This document shows, one piece after another, positions 13,863 through 29,157 of a stretch of 64,000 bases of DNA. The stretch's first letter is position 1. The number at the start of each line of letters is the position of its first letter. Below the pieces are notes generated by a model, which was not told where the DNA came from, did no database searches, and saw only the letters and a list, made by a program, of their open reading frames with translations. The translations under genes were made by a program, and so were the position numbers. The DNA comes from Pseudomonadota bacterium. GTDB taxonomy: Bacteria > Pseudomonadota > Gammaproteobacteria > Xanthomonadales > SZUA-38. The stretch spans positions 226,581 to 290,580 of the forward strand of contig JBCCCR010000002.1 in NCBI GenBank assembly GCA_039033415.1, in the 5' to 3' direction.

Positions 13863-16316
13863 TTAACGGAACCGATAGGTGGCGGTGATGCCGTAGGTGC
13901 GGCGTTCGCCGTAGTAGGCTCCCTGAAGGTTTGAGCCGGCGGCCTGGATGATGGTCAGCGCGTTGGACGCGTACTTCTCATCGGTCAGGTTGCGGGCCCA
14001 GAGCGCCACATCGATGTTGCCAAACTCCAGTCCGGTGCGAAGGTTTGCGACCGTTCGGCTCGGGAACTGGGCGGCGTTGATCGTATCGCCGAAGAAAGAC
14101 GATTGATAGGCGACGTCAGCGCGCACGAAGTAGTCGGCACCCCACGCATCGAGCGATGAACGCCACTGGCCGCCGACGGCAATCTGTGTCGTTGGCGTAC
14201 GCGGAAGACGGTTGCCGCTCACGTCACCATCAGAGGAGCAGACGATGTCGTCGCAGGGCGGCGCGGTGAAGGGCCCGGCAATCCGAGCAAAAACCGTGTC
14301 AGTGGCGTTGTCATATTCCGCCTCGCTGTAGGCAAACGAGGCGTCCAGGCTTAGGTTGTCGTTGACCAGCCAGGAACCCTCCAGCTCCAGACCCCAGATT
14401 GACGCGTCACCGAAGTTGAGCGTGATGGCCGTGTTCAAAATGCTGCCGTTGGGGTCTGCCGCCGTCACCTGCATGTCGCTCCAGTCGGTGTAATAGAGCG
14501 CCGCGTTCAAGACGGCCGCGCCACCGAGCAGCGTGTTTTTGGCGCCAACTTCAAAGGTGGTATTGAACTCCGAATCGAAGGTGCGCTCGGGCTCCTCAAT
14601 GGCGCCGGAGTTGAAGCCGCCGGCCTTGGCGCCGCGAGCGATGGTGCCATACAGCAGCGTATCGTCACTCAGGTCGTGCTCGAGCGTGATCCGCGGCGTA
14701 ATGAAATCATCGTCCCGGGACAGCACCAGCCCGTTGCTAAGGCCCGTGGTGGTGATGTCCTCATTGGTGAACCGCGCCTCAAGCCCAAGGCGGGTTTTGC
14801 CGTTGGCAAACGCGTAATTCACCTCACCAAAAACCGAGGCCACCTCGGTCACCGTCTCGTCGTCGCGCACGACGAGGTTGCCAAACGCATCGGGGTTAAA
14901 AGGGAACCCGCCGAGGAGAAACCCGGTGGAGTCCCGGGTGATGTTCAGCGGCGAAATGGAGTCGGCCGGCTGGCTCACACTCACAAAAAAGTTGTTGTCC
15001 GTCCCGTCGCCGATAAACGCCCCGACCGACCCCGTCCACGGCCCGCCGTTGTCGATATCGAGGCGAAGCTCGTAAGAATCATAGTCCACCTCACCCAGGG
15101 GGCTGGCCTGGAAGTTACACAGGCTTACGCCGCCCTGGATGATGAACGGCGACAGGATGGTGCCGCAGTTGACCGGATCGGATTCGGCAGAAACCGCAGA
15201 CAGCGTGTCGGCGTCGACGTTGCCAAACAGGAAGTTGAACGAGAACGTCTCGTTGATCTGATAGTCGGCCTCGAAGCGAATGATGTCGCCACCGGATTGC
15301 CGGCTAAAGCCGCGCGGCTGAACCAGCACCGAGTCGGCGGGCGCCGGCGGCTGACCGCAGAACAGCCGAAACCCTCCGTTCAGAAAGGAGCCGCAGTTGC
15401 CCTGACCCAGACCGGTACTGCGCCACTGCGACGCACGCGCCTCTTCTTCGCGATCGAAGCCGTAGTAAGACAGATCCAGCGTCAGGTCTTCGGTGGCGTT
15501 GAACAGCACGTTGAGGCTGTAAGTGTCGGTGTCCCACCCCCCAACGTTGCCTTCGGTTCCCGGGCTGATGCCACGATTGGCATCCGGGTGATCATTTCTC
15601 CAGCTGCCGTCGAACTCGGTGTGATCGAAGCTCGCGCGAAGATAGAGCTTGTCCTCAATCACCGGAATGGAAATGGCGCCGCCGTAGTCGAAGCGCTCAT
15701 CGGAACCGCCCGTCAGCGTAAGCTCGCCATCCAGGTCGCCACCGGCTTTCTGCGGGATGTAGTTAATCGCGCCGGCAAAAGCGTTTCGCCCGTAGCGAGC
15801 GCTCTGCGGCCCTTTCACAATTTCGATCCGCTGCAGATTGCTCACACCGAGATCAACCAGCCAAGAGCGAGGCAGGTAAATCCCGTCAAGAAAGGTGGCC
15901 GTCGTTTGCTCGCGCGACGTGACGTTGATAGTGGGCTGGCTTCGGATCACCGGCCCGCCGTTGCCGCCGTCGAAATCCTCGAACGCGAAGCCGGCAGTGA
16001 AGCGGGCCACGTCGTCCAGCTCGGTGATGTTGCGGCGCTTGATGGCGTCGGCGTCAAACGCGGTGATGCCGAGCGGTACGTCCTGGAGACTTTCGGCCCG
16101 ACGTCGGGCGGTGACCAGGACGGTCTCCAGCGTACCTTCGGTGGCCACCTCCGCGCCTTCCTGAGCCATCGAGATGGTTGGCGTTAATCCACCGCCGAGC
16201 AGCGCCGCCCCAACGGCGCTTGCCAGCAGACCGGGCCGGAGAACGGATGAGCGACGGCGGCGATTTACCCTCTGCAGATCCCGGGATGATGATCGGTAAA
16301 GGCGTGTGGTTTTCAT
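13863..16316 (-). CDS. TonB-dependent outer-membrane receptor 1
   Basis: 817 residues from ATG 16316, preceded by GAGGTG about 7 nt upstream; a longer start at 16406 is unlikely. The signal peptide has a long basic region (RVNRRRRSSVLR) and ends near TISMAQEG. A TonB-box-like segment ETVLVTARRR follows, then the plug (DVPLGITAFDADAIKRRN, RIEIVKGPQSARYGRNAFAGAINYI) and a 22-strand-type barrel ending YGITATYRFR. It ends in Arg after the usual terminal aromatic, a small oddity. It imports a large or scarce ligand in a TonB-dependent way. The plug and strand style resembles the catabolic (non-siderophore) receptors of marine gammaproteobacteria and Sphingomonas. It converges with the serine-hydrolase gene at 13826. 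Confidence 0.93.
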   Translation of the reverse strand: MKTTRLYRSSSRDLQRVNRRRRSSVLRPGLLASAVGAALLGGGLTPTISMAQEGAEVATEGTLETVLVTARRRAESLQDVPLGITAFDADAIKRRNITELDDVARFTAGFAFEDFDGGNGGPVIRSQPTINVTSREQTTATFLDGIYLPRSWLVDLGVSNLQRIEIVKGPQSARYGRNAFAGAINYIPQKAGGDLDGELTLTGGSDERFDYGGAISIPVIEDKLYLRASFDHTEFDGSWRNDHPDANRGISPGTEGNVGGWDTDTYSLNVLFNATEDLTLDLSYYGFDREEEARASQWRSTGLGQGNCGSFLNGGFRLFCGQPPAPADSVLVQPRGFSRQSGGDIIRFEADYQINETFSFNFLFGNVDADTLSAVSAESDPVNCGTILSPFIIQGGVSLCNFQASPLGEVDYDSYELRLDIDNGGPWTGSVGAFIGDGTDNNFFVSVSQPADSISPLNITRDSTGFLLGGFPFNPDAFGNLVVRDDETVTEVASVFGEVNYAFANGKTRLGLEARFTNEDITTTGLSNGLVLSRDDDFITPRITLEHDLSDDTLLYGTIARGAKAGGFNSGAIEEPERTFDSEFNTTFEVGAKNTLLGGAAVLNAALYYTDWSDMQVTAADPNGSILNTAITLNFGDASIWGLELEGSWLVNDNLSLDASFAYSEAEYDNATDTVFARIAGPFTAPPCDDIVCSSDGDVSGNRLPRTPTTQIAVGGQWRSSLDAWGADYFVRADVAYQSSFFGDTINAAQFPSRTVANLRTGLEFGNIDVALWARNLTDEKYASNALTIIQAAGSNLQGAYYGERRTYGITATYRFR

Positions 16317-16591
16317 TATTGCACCTCGTTGGCGACGGACGGCAAAGCGGTGCCGGCCGGCATTTGCGAAGCCGCTATTCAGTCGCAAAGCGACGGCAAA
16401 TACCAATGCAAAGGGTGGAAGCCAGGATAAGCAGCACGCATGTATATGATCGCTGACAGTCCGGCTTCTGACTGCTTCAGTATGTTGACAGCGGCATTAT
16501 TCGTGGGGCTCGTTGCGCCATAGCTAAATTGCATGAGGCGCCCCGCGATCGCTGGGGTATGGTGTGGCGCTGCGTTCCTCGGAGTTACCCT

Positions 16592-17095
16592 ATGACCCTC
16601 ATGACAACAGCTCGCGCCAGACGAGCATTGGCACTCGTTGCCCTGTTGCTGGCGGGTTTCCTGTACGGATGCGCCAGCCAATCTGGCGACGCTGAGGACA
16701 GCTATGATCTGGACGCTGCCCGGGAAGAGATCTGGGGCAAAGAGCAGGCGATCTACGCCGCCCGCGGTGATGGTGACCTACAGACCTATATCAACAACAC
16801 GTCCGAGCACTACATGGGCTGGCCGCCGGGCTGGGATCAACCCAGCGGGCTGGAGAAGCTGCGCGAAGGCGCAAAAGGATTCATCCAATATAAAGAAGAA
16901 GAACTCACGATGACCTTCGGGGATATCACCTTCTCCGGTGATACCGCCGTCATCTACTACAGCACCCACCGGACGCGCATGCCGACGGGAGAAGCGGTGG
17001 ATCAGCGCTTCGAAATCATTCACGTGTGGACTCGGGAAGAAGGGGAATGGCGGCTGGTCGGCGCACTTGGTCGTACTAAACCACCCGAAGCCTAA
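16592..17095 (+). CDS. SnoaL/DUF4440-like (NTF2-fold) lipoprotein
   Basis: 167 residues from ATG 16592 (GGAG upstream); a start at 16529 would extend the signal peptide unnaturally. The signal peptide ends in the lipobox LYGCAS, so the protein is a lipoprotein. The mature part (AREEIWGKEQAIYAARGDGD, then an IHVWTREEGEWRLVG strand) has the pattern of the NTF2-like DUF4440/SnoaL fold, used as enzyme or binding pocket. It lies 26 bp upstream of the GPH transporter gene. A second NTF2-like lipoprotein occurs at 32351-32887. Function not known. Confidence 0.75.
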   Translation: MTLMTTARARRALALVALLLAGFLYGCASQSGDAEDSYDLDAAREEIWGKEQAIYAARGDGDLQTYINNTSEHYMGWPPGWDQPSGLEKLREGAKGFIQYKEEELTMTFGDITFSGDTAVIYYSTHRTRMPTGEAVDQRFEIIHVWTREEGEWRLVGALGRTKPPEA

Positions 17096-17121
17096 TCGCC
17101 TGTCAGCTGAGTTGATCGACC

Positions 17122-18489
17122 GTGGACACGACCGCTAGCGGAGCCCCCACCGACGCGCGCGCACTCGGGTTCGGGACGCGCCTGTCCTGGGGAATCGGGT
17201 CACTCGGCACGATCGGTTACCTCAACACGGTGACCGCGCTGATTCTCGTTTATCTGACCACCATCGTCGGTCTCGATGCCGCCGTAGCCGGAAGCATTGT
17301 TGCCGGCGCACGGATCATCGATGCATTCAGCGATCCGCTGATCGGCTGGGTGACAGACCGAACCAAAACCCAGATGGGTCGACGTCGACCCTACCTGTTG
17401 CTAGGCGCAATTGTCTGCGGCATTTCGCTGCCGCTGGTGTATTCAACGCATTTGCTGACGGCCAGCCTGCCGCCGGTGGCCGTTGCTACTGGCGTCCTCG
17501 TGCTTTATTCGTTGGGCTTTTCCATCTTCAACGTACCTTACCTGGCGATGCCGGTGGAGATGACCAGCGACCGCGCTCGCCGGATTCAGATCATGAGTTT
17601 TCGCGTTGTGTTCATGATGCTGGGTGGCCTTCTGGGAAACGCGGGCGCGCCGGCGCTGATTACCTGGCTCGGCGGCGATGCTGACGCTTACCAGCAGCTG
17701 GGCTTCATCGCCGGTGCGGTGATCTTCGTCGCCATGATGTGGACCTTTCTGGGAACCCGATCGGCCAACAGCACAGAACATACGCCCACCGAGACACCGT
17801 TCCGCGAGGAGGTCCGCTCGCTGCTGAGCAACAAGCCTTTTATGACGCTGGTGGCGGTCAAGGTACTGCAGTTCATTGCGATCGCCGCCTCCGCCAGCAC
17901 GTTTGCCTTCTTTGTCACGGTGGTGCTCAAGCAGACCTTCAACCTCTTGTCGGTTTTTGGCCTCGTCACAACCGCCTCGATTCTCACGTTTGTCCCGTTC
18001 TGGCGCTGGATGAGCGGTCGAATCTCCAAAAAGACCGGTTTCATGATTGGCCTGGTCGGAGACATCTTTGCCACGCTCTTGTGGCTGGTAGCCACGCCGG
18101 AGAACGCTTACCCCATTGTCATCGTGCGGGGGATATTGGTCGGCGTATTTTCCTCAGCCATTTTGCTGAACAGTCAGACCATGTGGCTGGATACCATCGA
18201 CTATGACCGGAAGATCACCGGTCGCAACCGCGAGGGGCTTTACACGTCGGTCTATGTTTTTGTTGAACGTCTTGGCTATTCCGTCGGCCCGCTGGCGCTT
18301 GGGTTACTGCTCAGCAACATGGGTTTCGACAAGACGCTGCCGCTCGACCAGCAGCCCGACAGCGCGGCTTTGGCGGTTAGCATCGGAATGATCTGGCTGC
18401 CGGCGGCGGTCTACGTACTAGCGTTTTTCTTTCTGAGTCGCTATACCTTGCCCGATAATCCGCCACAGTCCGCGAAGGTAAGTTCATGA
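17122..18489 (+). CDS. GPH-family (MFS_2) cation symporter
   Basis: 455 residues with 12 predicted membrane segments. The family signature is exact: ARIIDAFSDPLIGWVTDRTK, followed by GRRRPYLLLGAI. Members couple Na+ or H+ to uptake of glycosides, pentoses or hexuronides, and many uncharacterised members sit in marine catabolic clusters. GTG 17122 is the start with only weak upstream complementarity to 16S rRNA. Its stop overlaps the methyltransferase start by 4 bp (ATGA), which ties the carrier to the methyltransferase/FAD-oxidase module that follows. Confidence 0.88.
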   Translation: MDTTASGAPTDARALGFGTRLSWGIGSLGTIGYLNTVTALILVYLTTIVGLDAAVAGSIVAGARIIDAFSDPLIGWVTDRTKTQMGRRRPYLLLGAIVCGISLPLVYSTHLLTASLPPVAVATGVLVLYSLGFSIFNVPYLAMPVEMTSDRARRIQIMSFRVVFMMLGGLLGNAGAPALITWLGGDADAYQQLGFIAGAVIFVAMMWTFLGTRSANSTEHTPTETPFREEVRSLLSNKPFMTLVAVKVLQFIAIAASASTFAFFVTVVLKQTFNLLSVFGLVTTASILTFVPFWRWMSGRISKKTGFMIGLVGDIFATLLWLVATPENAYPIVIVRGILVGVFSSAILLNSQTMWLDTIDYDRKITGRNREGLYTSVYVFVERLGYSVGPLALGLLLSNMGFDKTLPLDQQPDSAALAVSIGMIWLPAAVYVLAFFFLSRYTLPDNPPQSAKVSS

Positions 18490-19571
18490 ACGTTGATCAG
18501 CGCGCCAGGGCCGGCCTGCAGTTTCTGGGTTCACTCCAGGTGTTTTCCTCGACCGAATTGCAGCAGCAGGCGGAGACGGATTTTGATGACGCAGTCGAAG
18601 CGCCGGTGCTGACGCGCGATTTCCAGCAAGACACCGATCGGAATGGCTGGCTGCAGCGAATCGACCAAGCCCGCGAGGTGGTGGAGCGATCCCCCGCGTT
18701 CCGCTTCAATCGGCTTTATCAGCGCTACGTGGCTGAAGAAAACTGGGTGCGGGCGATCACCGGCGTGGAACGCCGGCGAGAGGTCTTCACCAAGGTTGCA
18801 CCCACGGCGCCGCCCGCGAGCGATCCACGGCTTCATCTGAATCCTGAGCTCGAGATGCCCGATTATTACCAGGGCGTGGAATGGCACCTGCAGCCGGGAG
18901 GTCTCGACGGTTACGATCTATCCGCCGCGATGGCGTTCTCCGGTTTTATCCCCTACGTCTTCGCCCGCGGCGGCTTTGCCGCGGTGGCCGTCGGCGACAA
19001 TTTGCTGCAGCAGCGTCGGGACGTGATCCAGCAATTTCGCAGCGACAACCTAAAGTGCATCTACGACCCTGGCTGCGGCGGGTCGGGCACGCTGGGGCTC
19101 TGTCGAGAGCGTTTCCCCGACGCCAAACTGATCGGCGGCGATCTATCAGCACAGGTCCTGATCAACGGGCTAAAATTCAGCGACAAAACCGGCATCCCGG
19201 TGGAGCTGTGGCAGGAGGATGCTCGGCAAACATCGCAGGCCGGCGGCAGCGTCGACGGTGTCATCTCTTACGCACTGCATCATGAGCTGCCGCCCGAAGT
19301 CAGCGTCGACGTGCTCAAGGAGATGTTTCGCATTCTTGAACCTGGGGGTGAGATGGTCATTTCCGACCCGCCGCCGTTTCGTGCGGTTGGACCCTTTCAG
19401 GCGGTCATGCTGGACTGGGAAACGGAAAATCGATCCGAGCCTTATTTCACCGAGGCCGGGATCTTTAACCTGGCGCAAGCCATGTCGGAAATTGGGTTCG
19501 TGGACGTTGAGGAGTATCCGCTGCAGGACACCCGCTATCCCTGGGTCACCCGAGGCCGCAAGCCGCGATGA
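18486..19571 (+). CDS. Class I SAM-dependent methyltransferase (module A)
   Basis: 361 residues. The N-terminal ~190 residues are a family-specific helical region containing HLQPGG (134-139). The Rossmann methyltransferase domain follows with motif I IYDPGCGGSGTLGLC (about 192-206), acidic motif II region LIGGDLSA, and ISYALHHELP and MFRILEPGGEMVISDPP as motifs III and IV. It is clearly paralogous to the gene at 26496-27560: both carry HLQPGG at position 134-135 and the same domain order. It is coupled by ATGA overlaps to the transporter upstream and to the small gene downstream. The acceptor is unknown; O- or C-methylation of a small molecule is likely. Confidence 0.88.
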   Translation: MNVDQRARAGLQFLGSLQVFSSTELQQQAETDFDDAVEAPVLTRDFQQDTDRNGWLQRIDQAREVVERSPAFRFNRLYQRYVAEENWVRAITGVERRREVFTKVAPTAPPASDPRLHLNPELEMPDYYQGVEWHLQPGGLDGYDLSAAMAFSGFIPYVFARGGFAAVAVGDNLLQQRRDVIQQFRSDNLKCIYDPGCGGSGTLGLCRERFPDAKLIGGDLSAQVLINGLKFSDKTGIPVELWQEDARQTSQAGGSVDGVISYALHHELPPEVSVDVLKEMFRILEPGGEMVISDPPPFRAVGPFQAVMLDWETENRSEPYFTEAGIFNLAQAMSEIGFVDVEEYPLQDTRYPWVTRGRKPR

Positions 19572-19894
19572 GCGATGACCTGAAGAACGGCACCATGCCG
19601 GAGGCCGCAAAGCGGCCCGACAAACCCTACCTGTCGACGCCGGAACTCGACGCGCTTGCCCTCAGCCAAACCGAGCTTCTGTCGGAGCTCTGGATTTTGC
19701 GGGACCGGGTCACCGTGCTGGAGTATCTGCTGACGCAGGCCGGTATTCTCAAAGCGGGTGCCATTGATGATTTTGAGCTGCCGGCGGACCTGGCCGAAGA
19801 CCTGGATCGCGAGCGCGACCAGCTGGTCGCGCGCATCGTCGGCGCCGGCCACCGAAAGAAGCTCGATCTGGACACGCTGAAAAAGCAACCCTGA
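19568..19894 (+). CDS. Small helical protein, paralogue A (unrecognised family)
   Basis: 108 residues, no known domain recognised. Helical and charged, no signal peptide or membrane segment. The central block ELWILRDRVTVLEYLLTQAG aligns without gaps to ELWIERDRRRTLEALLQEKG of the gene at 25077-25406. About 21 identities occur over about 51 residues, so the two are paralogues. The ATG overlaps the methyltransferase stop (ATGA), and the FAD-oxidase gene follows after 3 bp. Placement between a methyltransferase and an oxidase suggests a partner or assembly subunit. Ordering and coupling make it a real gene rather than a chance ORF. Confidence 0.75.
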   Translation: MSDDLKNGTMPEAAKRPDKPYLSTPELDALALSQTELLSELWILRDRVTVLEYLLTQAGILKAGAIDDFELPADLAEDLDRERDQLVARIVGAGHRKKLDLDTLKKQP

Positions 19895-19897
19895 CCT

Positions 19898-22424
<2,527 letters not shown>

Positions 22425-22501
22425 TCACCTGCTATATTGCCGAGCGCAACCATTCCAAGTGCCAACCTTAAGCGAAACCGGATACAACCCCTTACCTCTT
22501 C

Positions 22502-23089
22502 ATGTCGAAAGCATCTGACAACCGGACACCCAAGCAGCAAAAGATCCTGGACTGCGCGCTACAGATCATGAAAGAACAGGGAGACGCCGGGCTGACGATG
22601 CGCAAGCTCGCCGAATCCTCCGGGATGCGGCTGAGCAATGTGCAGTACTACTTCAAAGCGAAAGACGATGTGCTGACAGCGATGGTTGGGGTGTACTTCA
22701 AGCAGTGTGAAAACGAGCTTGCGAAGATCACCGAGGGAGGCTCCGAACTCAACCAACGCGATCGAATCCACCGCTTGCTCACCGAAGTCCTGCACCACGG
22801 AACCGAATTGTCGGATATGTGCCGCGTCTTTCGGGAACTATGGGCCATCGCAACACGTAATGAGGCGGTTCGGGTCGAAATGGAGAGGTACTACCAAAAC
22901 CTCTGTTCGCTGCTAGGGCAAGCGGTGCTGGGCTCCGACGGCTCAAAAGAACGGGAGCAGCGCATCGTCAGCCTCCTGCTGCCGTACATCGAAGGTTATT
23001 CAATCACGGCATCGTCGCTGCCGCTGAACGTGGAGAGTGTCACCGACGTCATCACCAGTCTGACGATGGCCCTTACCGACGACACCTGA
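22502..23089 (+). CDS. TetR-family transcriptional regulator 1
   Basis: 195 residues. The N-terminal helix-turn-helix reads KILDCALQIMKEQGDAGLTM, then RKLAESSGMRLSNVQYYFKAK, as in TetR proteins. The C-terminal ~130 residues form the variable ligand-binding domain (VLHHGTELSDMCRVFRELWAI, SLLLPYIEGYSITA). Divergent from the haloalkane dehalogenase gene, with palindromes in the gap; it most likely represses that gene and itself. The ligand is presumably the dehalogenase substrate or a pathway metabolite. Its DNA-reading helix (SNVQYYF) closely resembles that of the second TetR protein (SAIQYYF), yet the two operator sequences differ. Confidence 0.9.
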   Translation: MSKASDNRTPKQQKILDCALQIMKEQGDAGLTMRKLAESSGMRLSNVQYYFKAKDDVLTAMVGVYFKQCENELAKITEGGSELNQRDRIHRLLTEVLHHGTELSDMCRVFRELWAIATRNEAVRVEMERYYQNLCSLLGQAVLGSDGSKEREQRIVSLLLPYIEGYSITASSLPLNVESVTDVITSLTMALTDDT

Positions 23090-23093
23090 AAGA

Positions 23094-23903
23094 CTAGCCG
23101 CTGATGGCGTCGATTAGATCCGACAGCTCCTGGTTGTAGCGCTCCGTCACCGTCATCGGGCAAAAATGGCCACCTTCGGGCAGCATCACCTGCTTGGCGC
23201 CGGGGATGAGCGTGGCCAGCTCGTCCGACATATCCGGTGAGGTCAGGCAGTCGTCCCGCGCCGAAATCACGCCGGTAGGTACCGTGATGTCTTTCAGCCG
23301 GTACCGAAGATCGTGGGTCATCACCGCATTCAGTCGGGCGAGCTCAATCTCCAGGCCGGGAAACGTTTCGATTCTCTGCTTCAGGTATTCATCGATGCCC
23401 GGATAGGTCGGCGCAATCGACCACGCCGGTGATGCCAGCAGGCTGCCCACCATCATGTACTGGCGCACACCGCAATTGATCAGGATATCCCGGCGGGTGC
23501 GAAAGGTGTCGACAAACAGCTGCGTGGGACCCGGCCAGCTGGCGCTCAGCACCAGCGACTTGACCCGATGTGGCTGCATCAGGGCCATGTGTTGACCGAT
23601 AGCGCCGCCGGTGGAGTGCCCGACAACGTGGGCGGATTCCAGACCCATCGCGTCCATCAGTGCCAGGACATCCTGCGCCATTTCCTGCGAACTGGTGACA
23701 ACCGGTGCCGGCGAACTGTTGCCGACGCCGCGATGGTCGTGGAGGATCACGCTGAACCGATCTGCAAGCATCGATACCTGCTTGTGCCAGAACGACCCTT
23801 TTCCACCCAGGCCGGCGATGAGCAGCAAAGGCTCACCTTCACCATGGGTTTCGGTATAGATCTCGGCCTCCCCCACATCCACCATGTTCGCGCGATCGGT
23901 CAC
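23094..23903 (-). CDS. Alpha/beta hydrolase (RutD/enol-lactonase-like)
   Basis: 269 residues from GTG 23903, chosen for AGGA 6 nt upstream; TTG 23963 and ATG 23885 are alternatives. Alpha/beta fold landmarks: LLLIAGLGGKGSFW (oxyanion region), HDHRGVGNS, nucleophile elbow GHSTGG, acid in SARDDCLTSP and the catalytic His in PEGGHFCPMT. The pattern is that of 3-oxoadipate enol-lactonase or RutD-like hydrolases. It lies between TetR 1 (convergent, 4 bp) and the dioxygenase gene (divergent). It probably hydrolyses an ester, lactone or C-C bond produced by the cluster oxidases. Confidence 0.88.
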   Translation of the reverse strand: MTDRANMVDVGEAEIYTETHGEGEPLLLIAGLGGKGSFWHKQVSMLADRFSVILHDHRGVGNSSPAPVVTSSQEMAQDVLALMDAMGLESAHVVGHSTGGAIGQHMALMQPHRVKSLVLSASWPGPTQLFVDTFRTRRDILINCGVRQYMMVGSLLASPAWSIAPTYPGIDEYLKQRIETFPGLEIELARLNAVMTHDLRYRLKDITVPTGVISARDDCLTSPDMSDELATLIPGAKQVMLPEGGHFCPMTVTERYNQELSDLIDAISG

Positions 23904-23981
23904 CTGTTGTCCTGCTGAGTACCTAAAAGGTGCAGGTTGACTCGGGCCGCGCCGTTGAACCAATCAAAATTACCTGTTTCG

Positions 23982-24000
23982 CCATACGCTAGGCGCATGG
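23982..24000. promoter_or_regulatory. Near-palindrome upstream of the dioxygenase gene
   Basis: CCATACGC-TAG-GCGCATGG is an inverted repeat with 8-bp arms and one mismatch. It lies in the 235-bp gap between the divergent alpha/beta hydrolase and PhyH-like genes. It may be an operator; nothing else marks it. Confidence 0.3.
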
Positions 24001-24138
24001 ATCAATCGGCGGCAATCATCCATGTTGGCGAGGGAGTTCCATGCACTTAACCTATGGCACAACCCGACATATGAATTGGAGCTTCTTGGCGTCGCTAGCT
24101 ACATTAGCACCCGGAAAAATTCTGGCTATGGTGAAACG

Positions 24139-25080
24139 ATGAACACCACACCCCAGGCCTGCCGGCCAATCACAGAAGAAGAGATCACTACCTACGAGCG
24201 CGACGGTGTCGTTTGCCTGCGCCAGGTGTTTGACAGCACCTGGGTTAACCGCCTGCTGCCGGTCGCTCGACGCATTACGATCGACAAAGAGGACTTCGGC
24301 CTGCTGCCCAGCTACCCAGGCCGCTATATGTCGCGCACCGTGCCAGAGTTCCGCGACTTTGTATTTAGCTCGCCGGTCGCCGAGGCTGCGGCCCGCGTCA
24401 TGCGATCCAGCTACGCGAAATTTTTCTTCGACGAAATCTTCGCCAAAGGACCACGCTCGAACGAGGCCACGATCTGGCATAACGACCGGATGGGCTGGCC
24501 CACCAGTGGCGTTATGGTGCCCTCAATCTGGATCCCGCTCACGCCGGTCGCCGAGGAAAACTCGCTGGAGTGCATCTTGGGTACCCAGCATGAGGACGTT
24601 CCCTACTGGCTGTTTTCACCCAACGGGCGCCAGATGATCCGGCCGGAAGACCGGCCGCTGCATCCTGACGGCGAAGCGCGACGCGGTGATCCGAACTTCA
24701 CGTTCAAGCAGTGGGCGATGGAGCCAGGCGATATCCTGATTGTCCATCCGTGGACCCTGCACTACTCCCACGGCAACACCGCCGACGACTGGCGAATCGC
24801 CATTTCCGTGCGGGTGTTTGGCGATGACATCCGCTGGAAGCCCCGGCCCGATTGCCTGAGCCTCGCCGGCGTTAGCGTCGACGAGATGATTGTCGGTGAG
24901 GTGCCAGCCGGACCCTGCATCCCAACGCTTTGGTCCGAAGACGGGCAGCGAGATGGTGATGCTCACTTCCCGCGAGGCTTTGCGACCAGCTGGTCCAAGA
25001 CCCGCCGCGACGACGTCAACGAGTTCGAAGAGTTCAAGCGGCTTCAGGCGAAGCACAAAAGCGAGGCGGTGGCAGGGTGA
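24139..25080 (+). CDS. Phytanoyl-CoA dioxygenase (PhyH) family Fe(II)/2-oxoglutarate oxygenase
   Basis: 313 residues from ATG 24139, preceded by GGTGAA; an upstream ATG at 24022 would add 39 residues without family similarity. The N-terminal ITEEEITTYERDGVVCLRQV is the PhyH opening motif. The iron triad is visible as H114 and D116 (IWHNDRMGWP) and H208 (LHYSHGN), and the 2-oxoglutarate Arg as R219 (DDWRIAISVRVFGDD). It should hydroxylate, or possibly halogenate or oxidise, a small molecule. The metal Asp is present, so halogenation is unlikely. Its stop overlaps the start of small-protein paralogue B (GTGA). Confidence 0.9.
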   Translation: MNTTPQACRPITEEEITTYERDGVVCLRQVFDSTWVNRLLPVARRITIDKEDFGLLPSYPGRYMSRTVPEFRDFVFSSPVAEAAARVMRSSYAKFFFDEIFAKGPRSNEATIWHNDRMGWPTSGVMVPSIWIPLTPVAEENSLECILGTQHEDVPYWLFSPNGRQMIRPEDRPLHPDGEARRGDPNFTFKQWAMEPGDILIVHPWTLHYSHGNTADDWRIAISVRVFGDDIRWKPRPDCLSLAGVSVDEMIVGEVPAGPCIPTLWSEDGQRDGDAHFPRGFATSWSKTRRDDVNEFEEFKRLQAKHKSEAVAG

Positions 25081-25406
25081 CGCCGGAGGACAAAGCCAGC
25101 GCGGCAGCCGAACAGGTAGCCGCTATCGGGATGCCGGAGGCCGGACAGGAACCGTCGTTTCTGCCGCATCCACTGATGGACGCCATGATGGAGTCAGTCC
25201 TGGCGCTGGGTGGCGAGCTTTGGATTGAGCGCGATCGGCGCCGCACCTTAGAGGCTCTGCTGCAGGAGAAGGGTCTGGTGACGGCCGACGAAATCGAGAG
25301 CTACCAGCTCACGCCAGAGCAGCGGGAGAGCCGCGACGAGGCGCTGGCAGAGATGACAAAACGGGTTTTTGAGTCGCTGAAGAAAATCGGCGCGGCTTCA
25401 GCCTAG
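25077..25406 (+). CDS. Small helical protein, paralogue B (unrecognised family)
   Basis: 109 residues from GTG 25077, which overlaps the dioxygenase stop by 4 bp. Homologous to 19568-19894: the shared core is ELWI-RDR---LE-LL---G, then A--I and a downstream Leu, with no gaps over about 51 residues. Soluble, charged and helical, with no known domain recognised. Paralogue A is coupled to a methyltransferase and an FAD oxidase; this one is coupled to a 2-oxoglutarate oxygenase. That suggests a common accessory role beside oxidative enzymes, such as subunit, scaffold or redox-partner adaptor. It converges with LysR at 25418. Confidence 0.75.
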   Translation: MTPEDKASAAAEQVAAIGMPEAGQEPSFLPHPLMDAMMESVLALGGELWIERDRRRTLEALLQEKGLVTADEIESYQLTPEQRESRDEALAEMTKRVFESLKKIGAASA

Positions 25407-25417
25407 TCGGCCCGCGT

Positions 25418-26344
25418 TCAGGCTGATTCCGCGGCCTGCACCTCGTCCACTTCCAGCTTGATGGACTGACGAATCTCTTCCGCCAGGGCGTTGGCCACCG
25501 GCCGCTGAAAGGCTTCTTTCCGGGTGATCAATCCGGCGCTGCGGATGAGGGGCACCCCGCGCACGTTGAGGCGGGTCACCGTCCCATCTGCCAGCTCCTG
25601 GCGCACGAGATGGTCGGGGATCAGCCCGACAAAACCGCCGGACATCACCAGCGATTTGATCAACGTCAGCGAGTTGGCCTGCAGCGCCGGCCGCGGCGCC
25701 GCAATCCCTGCGGAAATAAACAGCGAGTCGAGCACCTCCAGCGCATGAGGCTGGTCTACCGACGCCCAGCGGGCGTCCCGTAGCTCCTCCAGCGGTGGAT
25801 CTTCCTGCGCTGCGAGCGGATGAGTGCTGGCGGCAAAGACGCTGGTGTACACCTGCACCAGCGGCTCAAATTCCATCGAGTCAGGAAGCGCCAGCAGCGG
25901 GAAGTTGCTGAACGCCACCTCAATCTGACCCAGATCCAGGGCGTTAATGAGGTCTTCGAAGTATCCCTGCTGAAGATGCACGCGCACCTTGGGATGGCTG
26001 CCGCAAAAACGACCGATCATGTCGTCGATAATCCGAGTCGCAAATAGAGCACCAACCCCCAGCGCCACGGACCCGGCAAGTTCACCAACCGGCTGCTGCG
26101 CGTCGCGGCGCGCTCGCGCGCACTCGGCGAGAATCGACTTGGCGTGATGGTATAGCCGTTCCCCGGCCGCGGTGGGCGTGGCGCCGCGGGCATGACGCTC
26201 GAACAGCTCAACGCCCAGCTGATCTTCGAGGGTTTTCATGCTGCGGGTAAGTGCAGGCTGACTCAGGGGAATCGCTTCAGCCGCCTTTGACAGGTTGCGC
26301 TGTTCAAAAACCGCAACAAAGTGTTTTAGCTGGCGAATATCCAT
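25418..26344 (-). CDS. LysR-type transcriptional regulator
   Basis: 308 residues from ATG 26344 (AAGG about 6 nt upstream); a start at 26497 would add a non-family leader. The winged helix DIRQLKHFVAVFEQRNLSKA, then AIPLSQPALTRSMKTLEDQL, is canonical, followed by a two-lobed periplasmic-binding-like effector domain (GSVALGVGALFATRIIDDMI, FSNFPLLALP, GGFVGLIPDHLV). It diverges from the second methyltransferase gene across 151 bp, the usual arrangement for a LysR protein activating its neighbour. It probably controls the methyltransferase, FAD oxidase, monooxygenase and alcohol dehydrogenase operon at 26.5-31.4 kb. Confidence 0.9.
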   Translation of the reverse strand: MDIRQLKHFVAVFEQRNLSKAAEAIPLSQPALTRSMKTLEDQLGVELFERHARGATPTAAGERLYHHAKSILAECARARRDAQQPVGELAGSVALGVGALFATRIIDDMIGRFCGSHPKVRVHLQQGYFEDLINALDLGQIEVAFSNFPLLALPDSMEFEPLVQVYTSVFAASTHPLAAQEDPPLEELRDARWASVDQPHALEVLDSLFISAGIAAPRPALQANSLTLIKSLVMSGGFVGLIPDHLVRQELADGTVTRLNVRGVPLIRSAGLITRKEAFQRPVANALAEEIRQSIKLEVDEVQAAESA

Positions 26345-26459
26345 CTTGGCCTTACCTCGGTTAGGGCGGTTCAACAGGCCCGCAACGATCGCTCCATCGA
26401 CGCCGGGTATGGTCTCATACAGCCCATCAATTGGCTGGGTTCTGGCGCTTTTAGTAGTC

Positions 26460-26471
26460 TGTCGAACGACA
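26460..26471. promoter_or_regulatory. Inverted repeat between LysR gene and module B operon
   Basis: TGTCG-AA-CGACA, a perfect 5-2-5 inverted repeat, lies 25 bp before the ATG of the second methyltransferase gene and is flanked by an A-rich run. It could be part of a LysR site, but the T-N11-A signature is not clear. Confidence 0.3.
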
Positions 26472-26495
26472 AAAAAATTGAGTGGAAAGCCTACC

Positions 26496-27560
26496 ATGGA
26501 ACGAAATAGCGTGGGTAAAGCACCCCGCCAGCCGCGGCTGGAAGACGACAGCTACGCCGACTACCTGACCCAGGTCCGAAACTTTGCGATCCGCGAGTGG
26601 TTTCCGGAGGTTGCCGGACAGCTGGTAGCGGGCGCGGGCGCTGCCGGCCTGCCGGACGCAGGAGCTTCCTGCGACTATTCAGAACTCGCGCCTGTCGTCG
26701 ACTCGCTGCCTGCGGCAAACAGCTGGAAGCGGGTGATGCGAAGCCAGCAGCGGATGACCTGGGACAAGAGCTTTGAAAGCTACAGCCGCGACCGCCAGCA
26801 TTGGGTAGACCTGCTCGATCGCGCGGAGCAAAACTTCCCGGGACGCCTGCACCGCGACGAGTCGCTCGTGGTTCCCGACTCCGCCTGCGAAAACATTCAT
26901 TTGCAGCCCGGTGGCTACTGCCGAGACGAGCTGGCGGGGTTTGTGTTCCACCACGGCACCAACGTCTTTTACCAGGGTGACAACGATCACGACGAGCTGC
27001 ATGATCTGTACGCCGATATGCTCCGCCAGCCCGCCGACGGCCAGCTGAGTCGTATCGTCGACCTGGGCTGCTCCATCGGGCAGTGCACCACAGCACTCAA
27101 GACCCGCCACCCCGATGCGGACATCTGGGGCCTGGATATCGGTTTGCCGCTGCTCCGTTACGCTCACCTGCGGGCCACCGAACTCGGCAGCGACGTACAC
27201 TTCCAGCACGCGTTGGCTGAGGCGACGCCCTTTGAGGACAGCAGCGTCGACGCCGTCTTTGCCTACATCCTGTTTCACGAGGTCCCGCAGTTCAGTTTTG
27301 AGGAAATTGTGGCGGAAGTCCGACGCATCCTGCGCCCGGGCGGCACCTTCACGGTGATCGACGCGCCGAACGGCACGAATTTTCCGGCACCCAATCGTAT
27401 GTGGCTGGCGTTTGACGCGCAGTACAACTGTGAACCTTATTCGCCGGCGTTTGTGGCCAGCGACTTCAAGGGGCTGCTCGAGTCGCAGCACTTTGAGCAG
27501 ATCGAGCAGGGGCCAACCCCCACGTTCCTCTCCATGACCACCGCCGTAAAACCGGAGTAA
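26496..27560 (+). CDS. Class I SAM-dependent methyltransferase (module B)
   Basis: 354 residues from ATG 26496 (GGAAAG upstream); a longer start at 26295 would cross the intergenic region. Architecture equals that of 18486-19571: a helical N-terminal half with HLQPGG at 135-140, then motif I IVDLGCSIGQCTTAL, acidic motif IWGLDIGLPLLRYA, AEATPFEDSSVDAVFAYILF (motif III) and VRRILRPGGTFTVIDAP. Overall similarity to module A is moderate, so the duplication is not recent. The FAD-oxidase paralogue follows within 10 bp. The acceptor is unknown. Confidence 0.88.
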   Translation: MERNSVGKAPRQPRLEDDSYADYLTQVRNFAIREWFPEVAGQLVAGAGAAGLPDAGASCDYSELAPVVDSLPAANSWKRVMRSQQRMTWDKSFESYSRDRQHWVDLLDRAEQNFPGRLHRDESLVVPDSACENIHLQPGGYCRDELAGFVFHHGTNVFYQGDNDHDELHDLYADMLRQPADGQLSRIVDLGCSIGQCTTALKTRHPDADIWGLDIGLPLLRYAHLRATELGSDVHFQHALAEATPFEDSSVDAVFAYILFHEVPQFSFEEIVAEVRRILRPGGTFTVIDAPNGTNFPAPNRMWLAFDAQYNCEPYSPAFVASDFKGLLESQHFEQIEQGPTPTFLSMTTAVKPE

Positions 27561-27567
27561 CGGCACA

Positions 27568-29157
27568 GTGAACCAGCCCGTCGATCCGATGGGGTCGGAT
27601 ACCGATCAGCTGCTCAAGGCCTTGGCCTCGTGCATGGAGCGCGGCTCGCTCGATTTGAGCCCCGAGACGCTGGAACTTATGTCCCAGGACGTGTATCGAG
27701 CCGGCGCTGAACCGTTGGCGGTTGCCCGACCCCAGACAACGCAGGAGGTGTCTGCGCTGGTCAAGGTCGCCAACGCGCATCAGCTTCCGCTCTACGTCCG
27801 CGGCGGCGGCATGTCGTATACCGACGCCTACTACCCGGAAGAAGCTGGCGCCCTCACGCTGGACATGGCGAGCATGGATCAGGTGCGGGAAATCAACGCG
27901 CACGACCTGTACGTCACGGTCGAAGCCGGCTGCACCTGGAAGAGCCTGAACGCAGCGCTGGAGCCCCACGGCGTCCGGCCGATTTTCTGGGGCCCGATGT
28001 CGGGCAAGCTGTCGACGGTGGGCGGCGCCATGGCCCAGGGTGCCGTGACCTTCGGATCCTCCAGAAACGGCCCTTCCATGGCCGCGGCGCTCGGCATTGA
28101 GCTGGTGCTCGGATCCGGCGAGATTCTGCACACCGGCTCAGGCGGCCAGCCGGGCCACAGCGCCTTCTATCGGGAGTACGGTCCGGACCTGACCGGGTTG
28201 GTGTGCGGTGACGCTGGCGCGCTGGGTATCAAAACCGCCATCACGATGCGGCTTGAGCCCATTCCCGCCACGGGGCGCGGCCTGTCGTTTTCCTTTACAC
28301 AATTCAGCGATCTGGTGGAAGCCGTACGGCGAGTCTCCCGCTACAAGCTGGCGACCGAAATCTTCGGCGCCGAAACCGGGCTGGTGAAACGCGTGGCGGG
28401 CCCGCCCGATCTGAAGAGCGACCTGGGCCAGCTACTGACGCTTTTCCGCTCTGCGTCTAACCCGATCGCCGGCTTGCGCAAGATTCTGAAGGTCGCGCTA
28501 AACGGGCGACGCTTCATGGACCGCTCCCAGTTTCTGGTCAATTTTCTGACCGAGGGAACAGACAGCGCGGAGCTAAAGTGGATGCTAGGAAGAATTCGCC
28601 AGGAGATCGGCGACCTTGGCATCGAGGTAGCCGATACCGTGGCGGAATTCACCCGTGCTGAGCCGTTCCCTGATCCGATGCTGCTCGGTCCGGAAAACCG
28701 CCGACTGCTCCCGCTGCATGGGGTGGTGCCCTACTCCAGCGCCGACCCTTTGCACAACGATTATCGAGCGTACCTGGACAGCATTCAGGACCGCTGCAGC
28801 GAGCACGGGGTAGAGGTGTACATCGTCTACGCCACCACCGGCTCAGCCGGCTTCCTCTACGAGTGTGTGATCTACTGGCCGGACTCCTGGCCGCAGCTGC
28901 ATCAAAAACATACGGCCGACGAAATCTTATCGTCGGTGGCCGAACCAGAGGACAATCCCGAAGGTCGGGCGCTGGTCGAGGAAATCCGCCAGGAGACCAT
29001 CGAGATTTTCTATCGGCATGGCGCCATCCACTTCCAGATCGGCCGGGCCTACCCGTTTACGAAAGATCGAAATCCAGCGGCGCTCAAGCTGCTGACCGAT
29101 CTTCGCGATGGCCTGGACCCGAATCGACTGGTTAACCCGGGAGCACTCGGACTATGA
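27568..29157 (+). CDS. FAD-binding oxidase of the VAO/PCMH family (module B)
   Basis: 529 residues from GTG 27568 (GGAG 9 nt upstream). Paralogue of 19898-21472 over the whole length: PLAVARPQTTQEVSALV, VRGGGMSYTDAYYPEEAG, VTVEAGCTWKSLNAAL, TVGGAMAQGAVTFGSS, YGPDLTGL, HFQIGRAYPFTKDRNPAALK and the end DPNRLVNPGALGL. An FAD-dependent alcohol/phenol-type oxidase or dehydrogenase with no export signal. Its stop overlaps the monooxygenase start (ATGA). The order methyltransferase then oxidase repeats module A. Confidence 0.88.
   Translation: MNQPVDPMGSDTDQLLKALASCMERGSLDLSPETLELMSQDVYRAGAEPLAVARPQTTQEVSALVKVANAHQLPLYVRGGGMSYTDAYYPEEAGALTLDMASMDQVREINAHDLYVTVEAGCTWKSLNAALEPHGVRPIFWGPMSGKLSTVGGAMAQGAVTFGSSRNGPSMAAALGIELVLGSGEILHTGSGGQPGHSAFYREYGPDLTGLVCGDAGALGIKTAITMRLEPIPATGRGLSFSFTQFSDLVEAVRRVSRYKLATEIFGAETGLVKRVAGPPDLKSDLGQLLTLFRSASNPIAGLRKILKVALNGRRFMDRSQFLVNFLTEGTDSAELKWMLGRIRQEIGDLGIEVADTVAEFTRAEPFPDPMLLGPENRRLLPLHGVVPYSSADPLHNDYRAYLDSIQDRCSEHGVEVYIVYATTGSAGFLYECVIYWPDSWPQLHQKHTADEILSSVAEPEDNPEGRALVEEIRQETIEIFYRHGAIHFQIGRAYPFTKDRNPAALKLLTDLRDGLDPNRLVNPGALGL

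Follow-up and report, generated by a model that had tools for sequence, protein, structure and literature searches.

We analysed a 64,000-nucleotide stretch of DNA (the window) from a Pseudomonadota bacterium of the Xanthomonadales (assembly GCA_039033415.1, contig JBCCCR010000002.1), in which two short open reading frames (ORFs), at 19568–19894 and 25077–25406, encode proteins of 108 and 109 residues (small proteins A and B). Both starts overlap the stop of the preceding gene, through ATGA at 19568–19571 and GTGA at 25077–25080, as a preliminary description of the window had claimed. That description had also paired both genes with oxidative enzymes. This is correct for B, which follows a PhyH-type dioxygenase gene; the gene before A encodes an S-adenosylmethionine (SAM)-dependent methyltransferase, and the oxidase linked to flavin adenine dinucleotide (FAD) comes after A (Table 1).

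A small-protein family and its methyltransferases

A and B are paralogues, as first proposed. Their best ungapped 51-residue window holds 21 identities, compared with a mean of 10.8 and a maximum of 16 in the best windows from 300 shuffles of one sequence, and BLASTP, run as a single comparison, aligned them with 29 of 82 columns identical (E 2e-13). A profile search of the source genome returned 11 family members at E <= 2.3e-14, nine beyond the window pair, with a twelfth match (E 0.24) excluded; a congener holds 13 copies. Conservation across 30 sequences is 90% or more at E40, R47 and E52 (numbering of A). Cysteine occurs in 8 of the 30, at most once in each, and in neither window protein.

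The family carries no domain that we could name. NCBIfam gave no family for either window protein at E <= 1, and a Pfam scan of 30 members gave nothing convincing, with scattered chance-like matches in three or fewer of the 30 (best E 0.0028). Sequence searches of the PDB with both proteins and the profile were without significant result. In an AlphaFold2 model, A forms a hairpin of two long helices (residues 25–57 and 73–105), whose overall arrangement is uncertain given a mean predicted local distance difference test (pLDDT) of 73.9 and a predicted template modelling score of 0.48; Foldseek returned no match for the hairpin model in the PDB. The profile searches thus placed neither protein in a well-described family, in keeping with the preliminary description.

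Weak PDB matches to Vps24, a uteroglobin construct and nitrile hydratase were discarded as not significant. The nitrile hydratase match, to the N terminus of the alpha subunit (4ob1; E 0.88 over 23 positions, not significant), reflects a weak likeness to the helix that carries the conserved E, R and E; the Pfam scan of 30 members did not list nitrile hydratase alpha. The same helix weakly resembles a protein judged CbpM-like by eye (L066:4766-5155, genome G020; L numbers denote loci), the last helices of which match the small-protein profile at E 2.2e-5. We kept this protein out of the family; no family methyltransferase lies beside it, and a fuller profile left its genome unmatched.

The enzyme before A belongs to a family of which 11 members in the source genome score 355–500 bits against its profile, the next match falling to 54 bits. 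Methyltransf_25 was above its curated cut-off in both window enzymes and in the eight other members scanned, in a Pfam scan that omitted L047 and L048. Across 165 aligned sequences, positions 194 (D/E), 196 (G), 200 (G) and 219 (D/E), corresponding to motif I of the SAM site and the acidic position that follows strand 2, are almost invariant, with S at position 200 in the window enzyme at 18486. Fourteen columns are invariant in 11 sequences and ten in 29 sequences, H266 and E267 among them.

The model of methyltransferase A (mean pLDDT 84.1) consists of N-terminal helices (residues 3–104) and a methyltransferase fold. VIA-align comparison of the model, which covers mainly residues 108–361, placed the catalytic fold close to that of geranyl diphosphate C-methyltransferase (4f86; Z 20.5, root-mean-square deviation 3.0 over 218 residues, 16% identity); a second entry for this enzyme is 3vc1, and the core fold is shared with the small-molecule class I methyltransferases RebM (3bus) and Rv2258c (5f8c/e/f; Foldseek E 8e-11) and with SpnF (4pne, entitled a [4+2]-cyclase; Z 18.1). 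Among the 60 of 154 PDB sequence matches listed, all begin at profile position 153 or later, and none is a relative of the N-terminal ~100 residues; we make no claim of a new fold for this part.

Pairing, distribution and co-divergence

Going by position, all 11 small genes of the source genome have a family methyltransferase of their own on the same strand. Ten pairs abut or overlap; in the eleventh, the small gene at 25077 lies 888 bp upstream of methyltransferase B, with a LysR-like gene on the opposite strand in the gap. Overlap was tallied by picking for each gene the start codon nearest a 4-base overlap, so that the counts refer to possible starts: in seven cases such a start and the methyltransferase stop overlap (4 bases in four cases, 1 base in two and 8 bases in one). 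One further small gene starts (GTG) 2 bases past the stop, and two precede the methyltransferase by 13–19 bp. Methyltransferase B is the sole family member in this genome without an abutting small gene; its true start is probably near 26496, as in the orthologue in the congener (L050). There, the order of small gene, LysR-like gene and methyltransferase is kept, with the pair 1105 bp apart. In the congener, 11 small genes adjoin or overlap a methyltransferase, and the remaining two of the 13 lie 1.1 kb and 4.3 kb away from one.

The two families also share their distribution. Within the order, the small family was found in 16 of 250 genomes and the full-length methyltransferase in 17, with 16 common to both. 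Beyond the source genome and the congener, 14 genomes carry one copy each of the small gene. In the seventeenth methyltransferase genome (G157) the enzyme gene runs into a contig end, and in two others (G030 and G065) the match, at about 5e-31, is confined to a part of the catalytic domain. At the level of the phylum, the same four genomes hold both families (small protein, 4 of 398; methyltransferase, 4 of 299). Per-genome methyltransferase counts from the order and phylum searches, in which 6–7 candidates at most were scored in each genome, are lower bounds, and presence alone was used. The class, searched for the small family only, gave 9 of 369 genomes.

Among named genomes we collected 77 small-gene loci, using a query made from five single-copy relatives, and the sample leans to that subgroup. 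A methyltransferase scoring above 270 bits accompanies the small gene in 72 of them. In two of the other five (L160 and L172) the small gene stands at the start of a contig, and three (L184, L186 and L197) are orphans within the fetched stretch. The loci come mostly from Proteobacteria (Xanthomonadales, other Gamma-, Alpha- and Betaproteobacteria), and also from Bacteroidota, Cyanobacteria, Kapaibacterium and Marinimicrobia. Six plasmid records hold 17 methyltransferases and 18 small genes, in equal numbers in five sphingomonad records (1:1, 6:6, 3:3, 3:3 and 4:4), the sixth, ES2-1, holding a lone small gene; judged by match coordinates, about 0.14 kb at most separates the two genes in 16 of 17 pairs, and 2.3 kb in the other. 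The pJE1 record names its pair ‘class I SAM-dependent methyltransferase’ and ‘hypothetical protein’.

Distances between the small proteins follow those between their enzymes. The distance matrices of the 11 pairs in the source genome correlate with r 0.49, a value reached in 21 of 20,000 permutations, and those of 29 pairs with r 0.89 (none of 20,000 permutations), a figure that includes shared species history. Covariation across 106 pairs (effective number 54) lay above that for shuffled pairing, a control that leaves phylogeny in. Four of the 11 strongest covarying pairs join small-protein residue 28 to residues 83, 86, 87 and 90 of one N-terminal methyltransferase helix, which we take as no more than a hint of an interface; among the top 40 pairs, 14 fall in the N-terminal part, which makes up 99 of 346 columns, so that there is no clear enrichment. 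Because some loci are present under two identifiers (L062/L122, L063/L129, L060/L182, L061/L185, L059/L187 and L195/L223), the totals of 106 pairs here, 116 in the overlap tally and 172 in the signal scan below include duplicates and are not counts of independent genes.

The gene pair is real and widespread, and of a kind already familiar: a methyltransferase accompanied by a small, probably dedicated partner.

A probable dedicated subunit and its rivals

Homology, near one-to-one pairing in low-copy genomes, frequent overlap of start and stop, shared presence and absence, and correlated divergence lead us to favour a reading in which each small protein serves one member of this class I SAM-dependent methyltransferase family as its dedicated, non-catalytic subunit, and we consider it probable. 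The hairpin would bind the methyltransferase it is paired with, perhaps at the helical N-terminal part of that enzyme, and may be required for folding, for oligomerisation or for a complete substrate pocket; most simply, it would pack on the N-terminal helices and complete the enzyme. An accessory subunit serving several gene clusters, as first suggested for A and B, survives as an idea, with a methyltransferase now read as the partner.

Several observations weigh against this reading. The clearest is an ‘Alphaproteobacteria’ metagenome-assembled genome of 4.1 Mb (G988, VGEM01 series) with 59 methyltransferase matches at E <= 1e-40; seven other genomes in the same search gave 33, 27, 12, 8, 4, 1 and 1. 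Across 39 stretches of G988 (L205–L243) there are 60 methyltransferase ORFs and 27 small ORFs, and 34 of the 60 lack a small gene on their own strand within 200 bp, several of these lying at contig ends. One contig carries a tandem array of eight methyltransferases with one small gene (L222:1667-13240). Twenty-three of the 27 small ORFs adjoin a methyltransferase. As the methyltransferases outnumber the small ORFs in these stretches, strict one-to-one pairing is a property of lower-copy genomes. The orphans L184, L186 and L197 have no adjacent methyltransferase, and a small gene on a plasmid of Novosphingobium sp. ES2-1 (L200:9953-10327) directly follows a TonB receptor gene and a 59-residue ORF; a search confined to this plasmid found no family methyltransferase. 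No ORF matching both profiles, as a fusion would, was found among the locus ORFs checked. Leave-one-out distance profiles ranked the true partner first for only 4 of the 11 small proteins of the source genome, and for B the enzyme at 26295 fell outside the first three of 11. The pairing of B with this enzyme therefore rests on position, count and congener synteny, and co-duplication is supported overall and not pair by pair.

The surplus of enzymes in G988 suits a transient assembly chaperone, one copy of which would aid folding or cofactor uptake in several methyltransferases and then leave; large methyltransferase sets would be compatible with either such a chaperone or a subunit shared between enzymes. 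A chaperone also suits the branch of enzymes with a putative export signal described below, since the nine small partners from this branch that we inspected by eye have no signal sequence. Numbers are equal in low-copy genomes, however, and the enzymes there each retain a diverged partner of their own, something for which a general chaperone would have no need. We therefore hold this explanation to be unlikely. The orphans raise a different alternative, a protein tied to the pathway or operon that acts alone, for example as substrate carrier or regulator: L184, L186, L197 and L200 stand beside genes resembling major facilitator superfamily (MFS) transporters, short-chain dehydrogenases/reductases or TonB receptors. 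Yet the genomes of the first three carry family methyltransferases elsewhere (27, 59 and 12 matches), and without dependence it is difficult to account for the matching occurrence of both families across the order; we hold an independent role to be very improbable.

The coupling to oxidative enzymes put forward in the preliminary description would make the small protein a general accessory subunit of FAD oxidases and PhyH proteins. B is translationally coupled to the PhyH gene, and FAD-type enzymes lie near small genes in the window, at L009 and L011, and on pJE1. Among the 11 small genes of the source genome, however, B alone is coupled in this way, and the redox neighbours vary between loci (FAD_binding_4, FAD_binding_2, amine oxidase or PhyH) or are not adjacent, whereas the methyltransferase family is nearly constant. 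Redox genes are indeed frequent nearby, and the link is one of pathway context; a role as their subunit seems to us very unlikely.

A dedicated methyltransferase subunit would have a parallel in how Trm112-type activators work, these also being small non-catalytic partners of class I methyltransferases; for the pair described here, the comparison draws on gene pairing. Two Trm112 complexes, Bud23–Trm112 (4qtu) and Hvo_0019–Trm112 (6f5z), turned up as matches to the methyltransferase fold. Trm112 binds zinc through cysteines and serves several unrelated methyltransferases, whereas the small-family protein has few cysteines, is modelled as a helical hairpin and is encoded next to the enzyme it is paired with. 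Literature searches found no paper describing the pair, with limited coverage of subscription journals, so that its absence from print is not established.

Neighbourhoods, a putatively exported branch and implications

Just 5' of the first pair (13863–18489), the window holds a TonB-receptor-like gene and an MFS-like transporter gene (both by eye) and a SnoaL-like gene, a set as in an uptake or degradation island. A scan of 80 proteins around the family genes of the source genome, with 25 of 69 families listed, showed MFS transporters and TonB receptors along with FAD-linked oxidases, alpha/beta hydrolases and aldehyde dehydrogenases. The pJE1 pair is surrounded by a TonB receptor, dehydrogenases, MmgE/PrpD, two flavin oxidoreductases and hydantoinase subunits. 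Genes for ligand-binding-type folds lie directly 3' of some single-copy pairs and differ by lineage: SnoaL_3, DUF3598_N or glyoxalase (L135:8363-8794, L126:8308-8913 and L143:8372-9244). Near the small genes of unrelated bacteria we repeatedly met a protein of ~220 residues, probably a membrane protein, for which Pfam gave no match.

Table 1 Coordinates of the genes discussed, as window positions or as locus:positions
Feature	Position	Strand	Basis
Methyltransferase A, class I SAM-dependent, 361 residues, partner of the 19568 protein	18486–19571	+	Methyltransf_25 E 2.6e-13; family 385 bits
Small helical protein A, 108 residues, start overlaps methyltransferase stop by 4 bases	19568–19894	+	Family profile; predicted helices
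FAD-linked oxidase, 3' of small protein A	19898–21472	+	FAD_binding_4 E 7.4e-36
PhyH-type dioxygenase, stop overlaps start of small protein B	24022–25080	+	PF05721 E 1.5e-16
Small helical protein B, 109 residues, GTG start	25077–25406	+	BLASTP against A; family profile
LysR-type regulator, between small protein B and methyltransferase B	25418–26497	-	By eye from sequence
Methyltransferase B, class I SAM-dependent	26295–27560 (ORF)	+	Methyltransf_25 E 4.8e-18; family 437 bits; L050 orthologue
FAD-linked oxidase, 3' of methyltransferase B	27568–29157	+	FAD_binding_4 E 6.3e-33
Recurrent protein of ~220 residues	L011:6287-6943, L197:87-758, L183:8507-9199, L186:6499-7443, L190:4965-5657, L192:4904-5527		
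Methyltransferases with Tat-type N terminus	L012:4464-5666, L053:4024-5226, L196:3190-4404, 23 further in L205–L241	-, -, + (first three)	

The neighbours are too varied across loci to point to one substrate. Given the transporters, oxidases and hydrolases and the genes resembling SnoaL, DUF3598 and glyoxalase, the enzymes may act on small organic compounds taken up or converted by the proteins encoded nearby, probably on a different small molecule for each paralogue, and the pair would have been duplicated as a unit with each new substrate gained. The family is best explained as a diversifying set of small-molecule methyltransferases built repeatedly into uptake and oxidation gene clusters. 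The scale that it reaches in some uncultured Alphaproteobacteria recalls the catabolic-paralogue expansions reported for SAR202 (PMC5395668, PMC6946804 and PMC10444878).

One branch of the family carries a putative twin-arginine translocation (Tat) signal. By a simple in-house rule, distinct from any published predictor, 27 of 172 methyltransferase ORFs (duplicates included) have an N-terminal twin arginine and, after it, a hydrophobic stretch free of charged residues, one of them (L130) being a false positive. With L130 removed, such N termini occur in 14 of 20 enzymes that have the small gene upstream, in 5 of 112 where it lies downstream and in 7 of 40 with none near. In a FastTree phylogeny from residue 105 onward, which excludes the signal, the trait changes four times (160 rows, 25 bearers; L195 was the only duplicate dropped), and the test of signal against gene order by independent pairs had one pair only. 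The bearers retain the SAM-site residues and H266/E267. At L012, L218 and L220, a FAD_binding_2 protein nearby has a Tat-like N terminus by eye, and the bearer from the source genome among these three also lies near ApbE and FMN_bind genes. Export of this branch is predicted from sequence.

These features leave room for a bolder scheme, which we regard as unlikely. The pair might be a versatile two-part enzyme scaffold, multiplied to ~60 methyltransferases in one 4-Mb genome and directed at many environmental organics. One branch would be exported folded through Tat with a fixed, bound SAM or nucleoside cofactor, to perform non-methylating chemistry beside exported flavoproteins, the hairpin serving as co-exported subunit or loading chaperone. 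A fixed cofactor is proposed since SAM is not expected in the periplasm. SpnF has a methyltransferase fold and does not methylate; the likeness to it would be relevant only to this reading of the Tat branch. The branch raises the question of what use the methyltransferase fold, with its SAM site intact, would have outside the cytoplasm.

For the family as a whole, two ‘hypothetical proteins’ now belong to a defined unit of two genes, and their putative partner can be put to the test. The unit has its place in uptake and degradation-type clusters of Xanthomonadales and sphingomonads, and some uncultured Alphaproteobacteria hold dozens of copies. A dedicated subunit would predict that studies of these methyltransferases without the small gene may fail.

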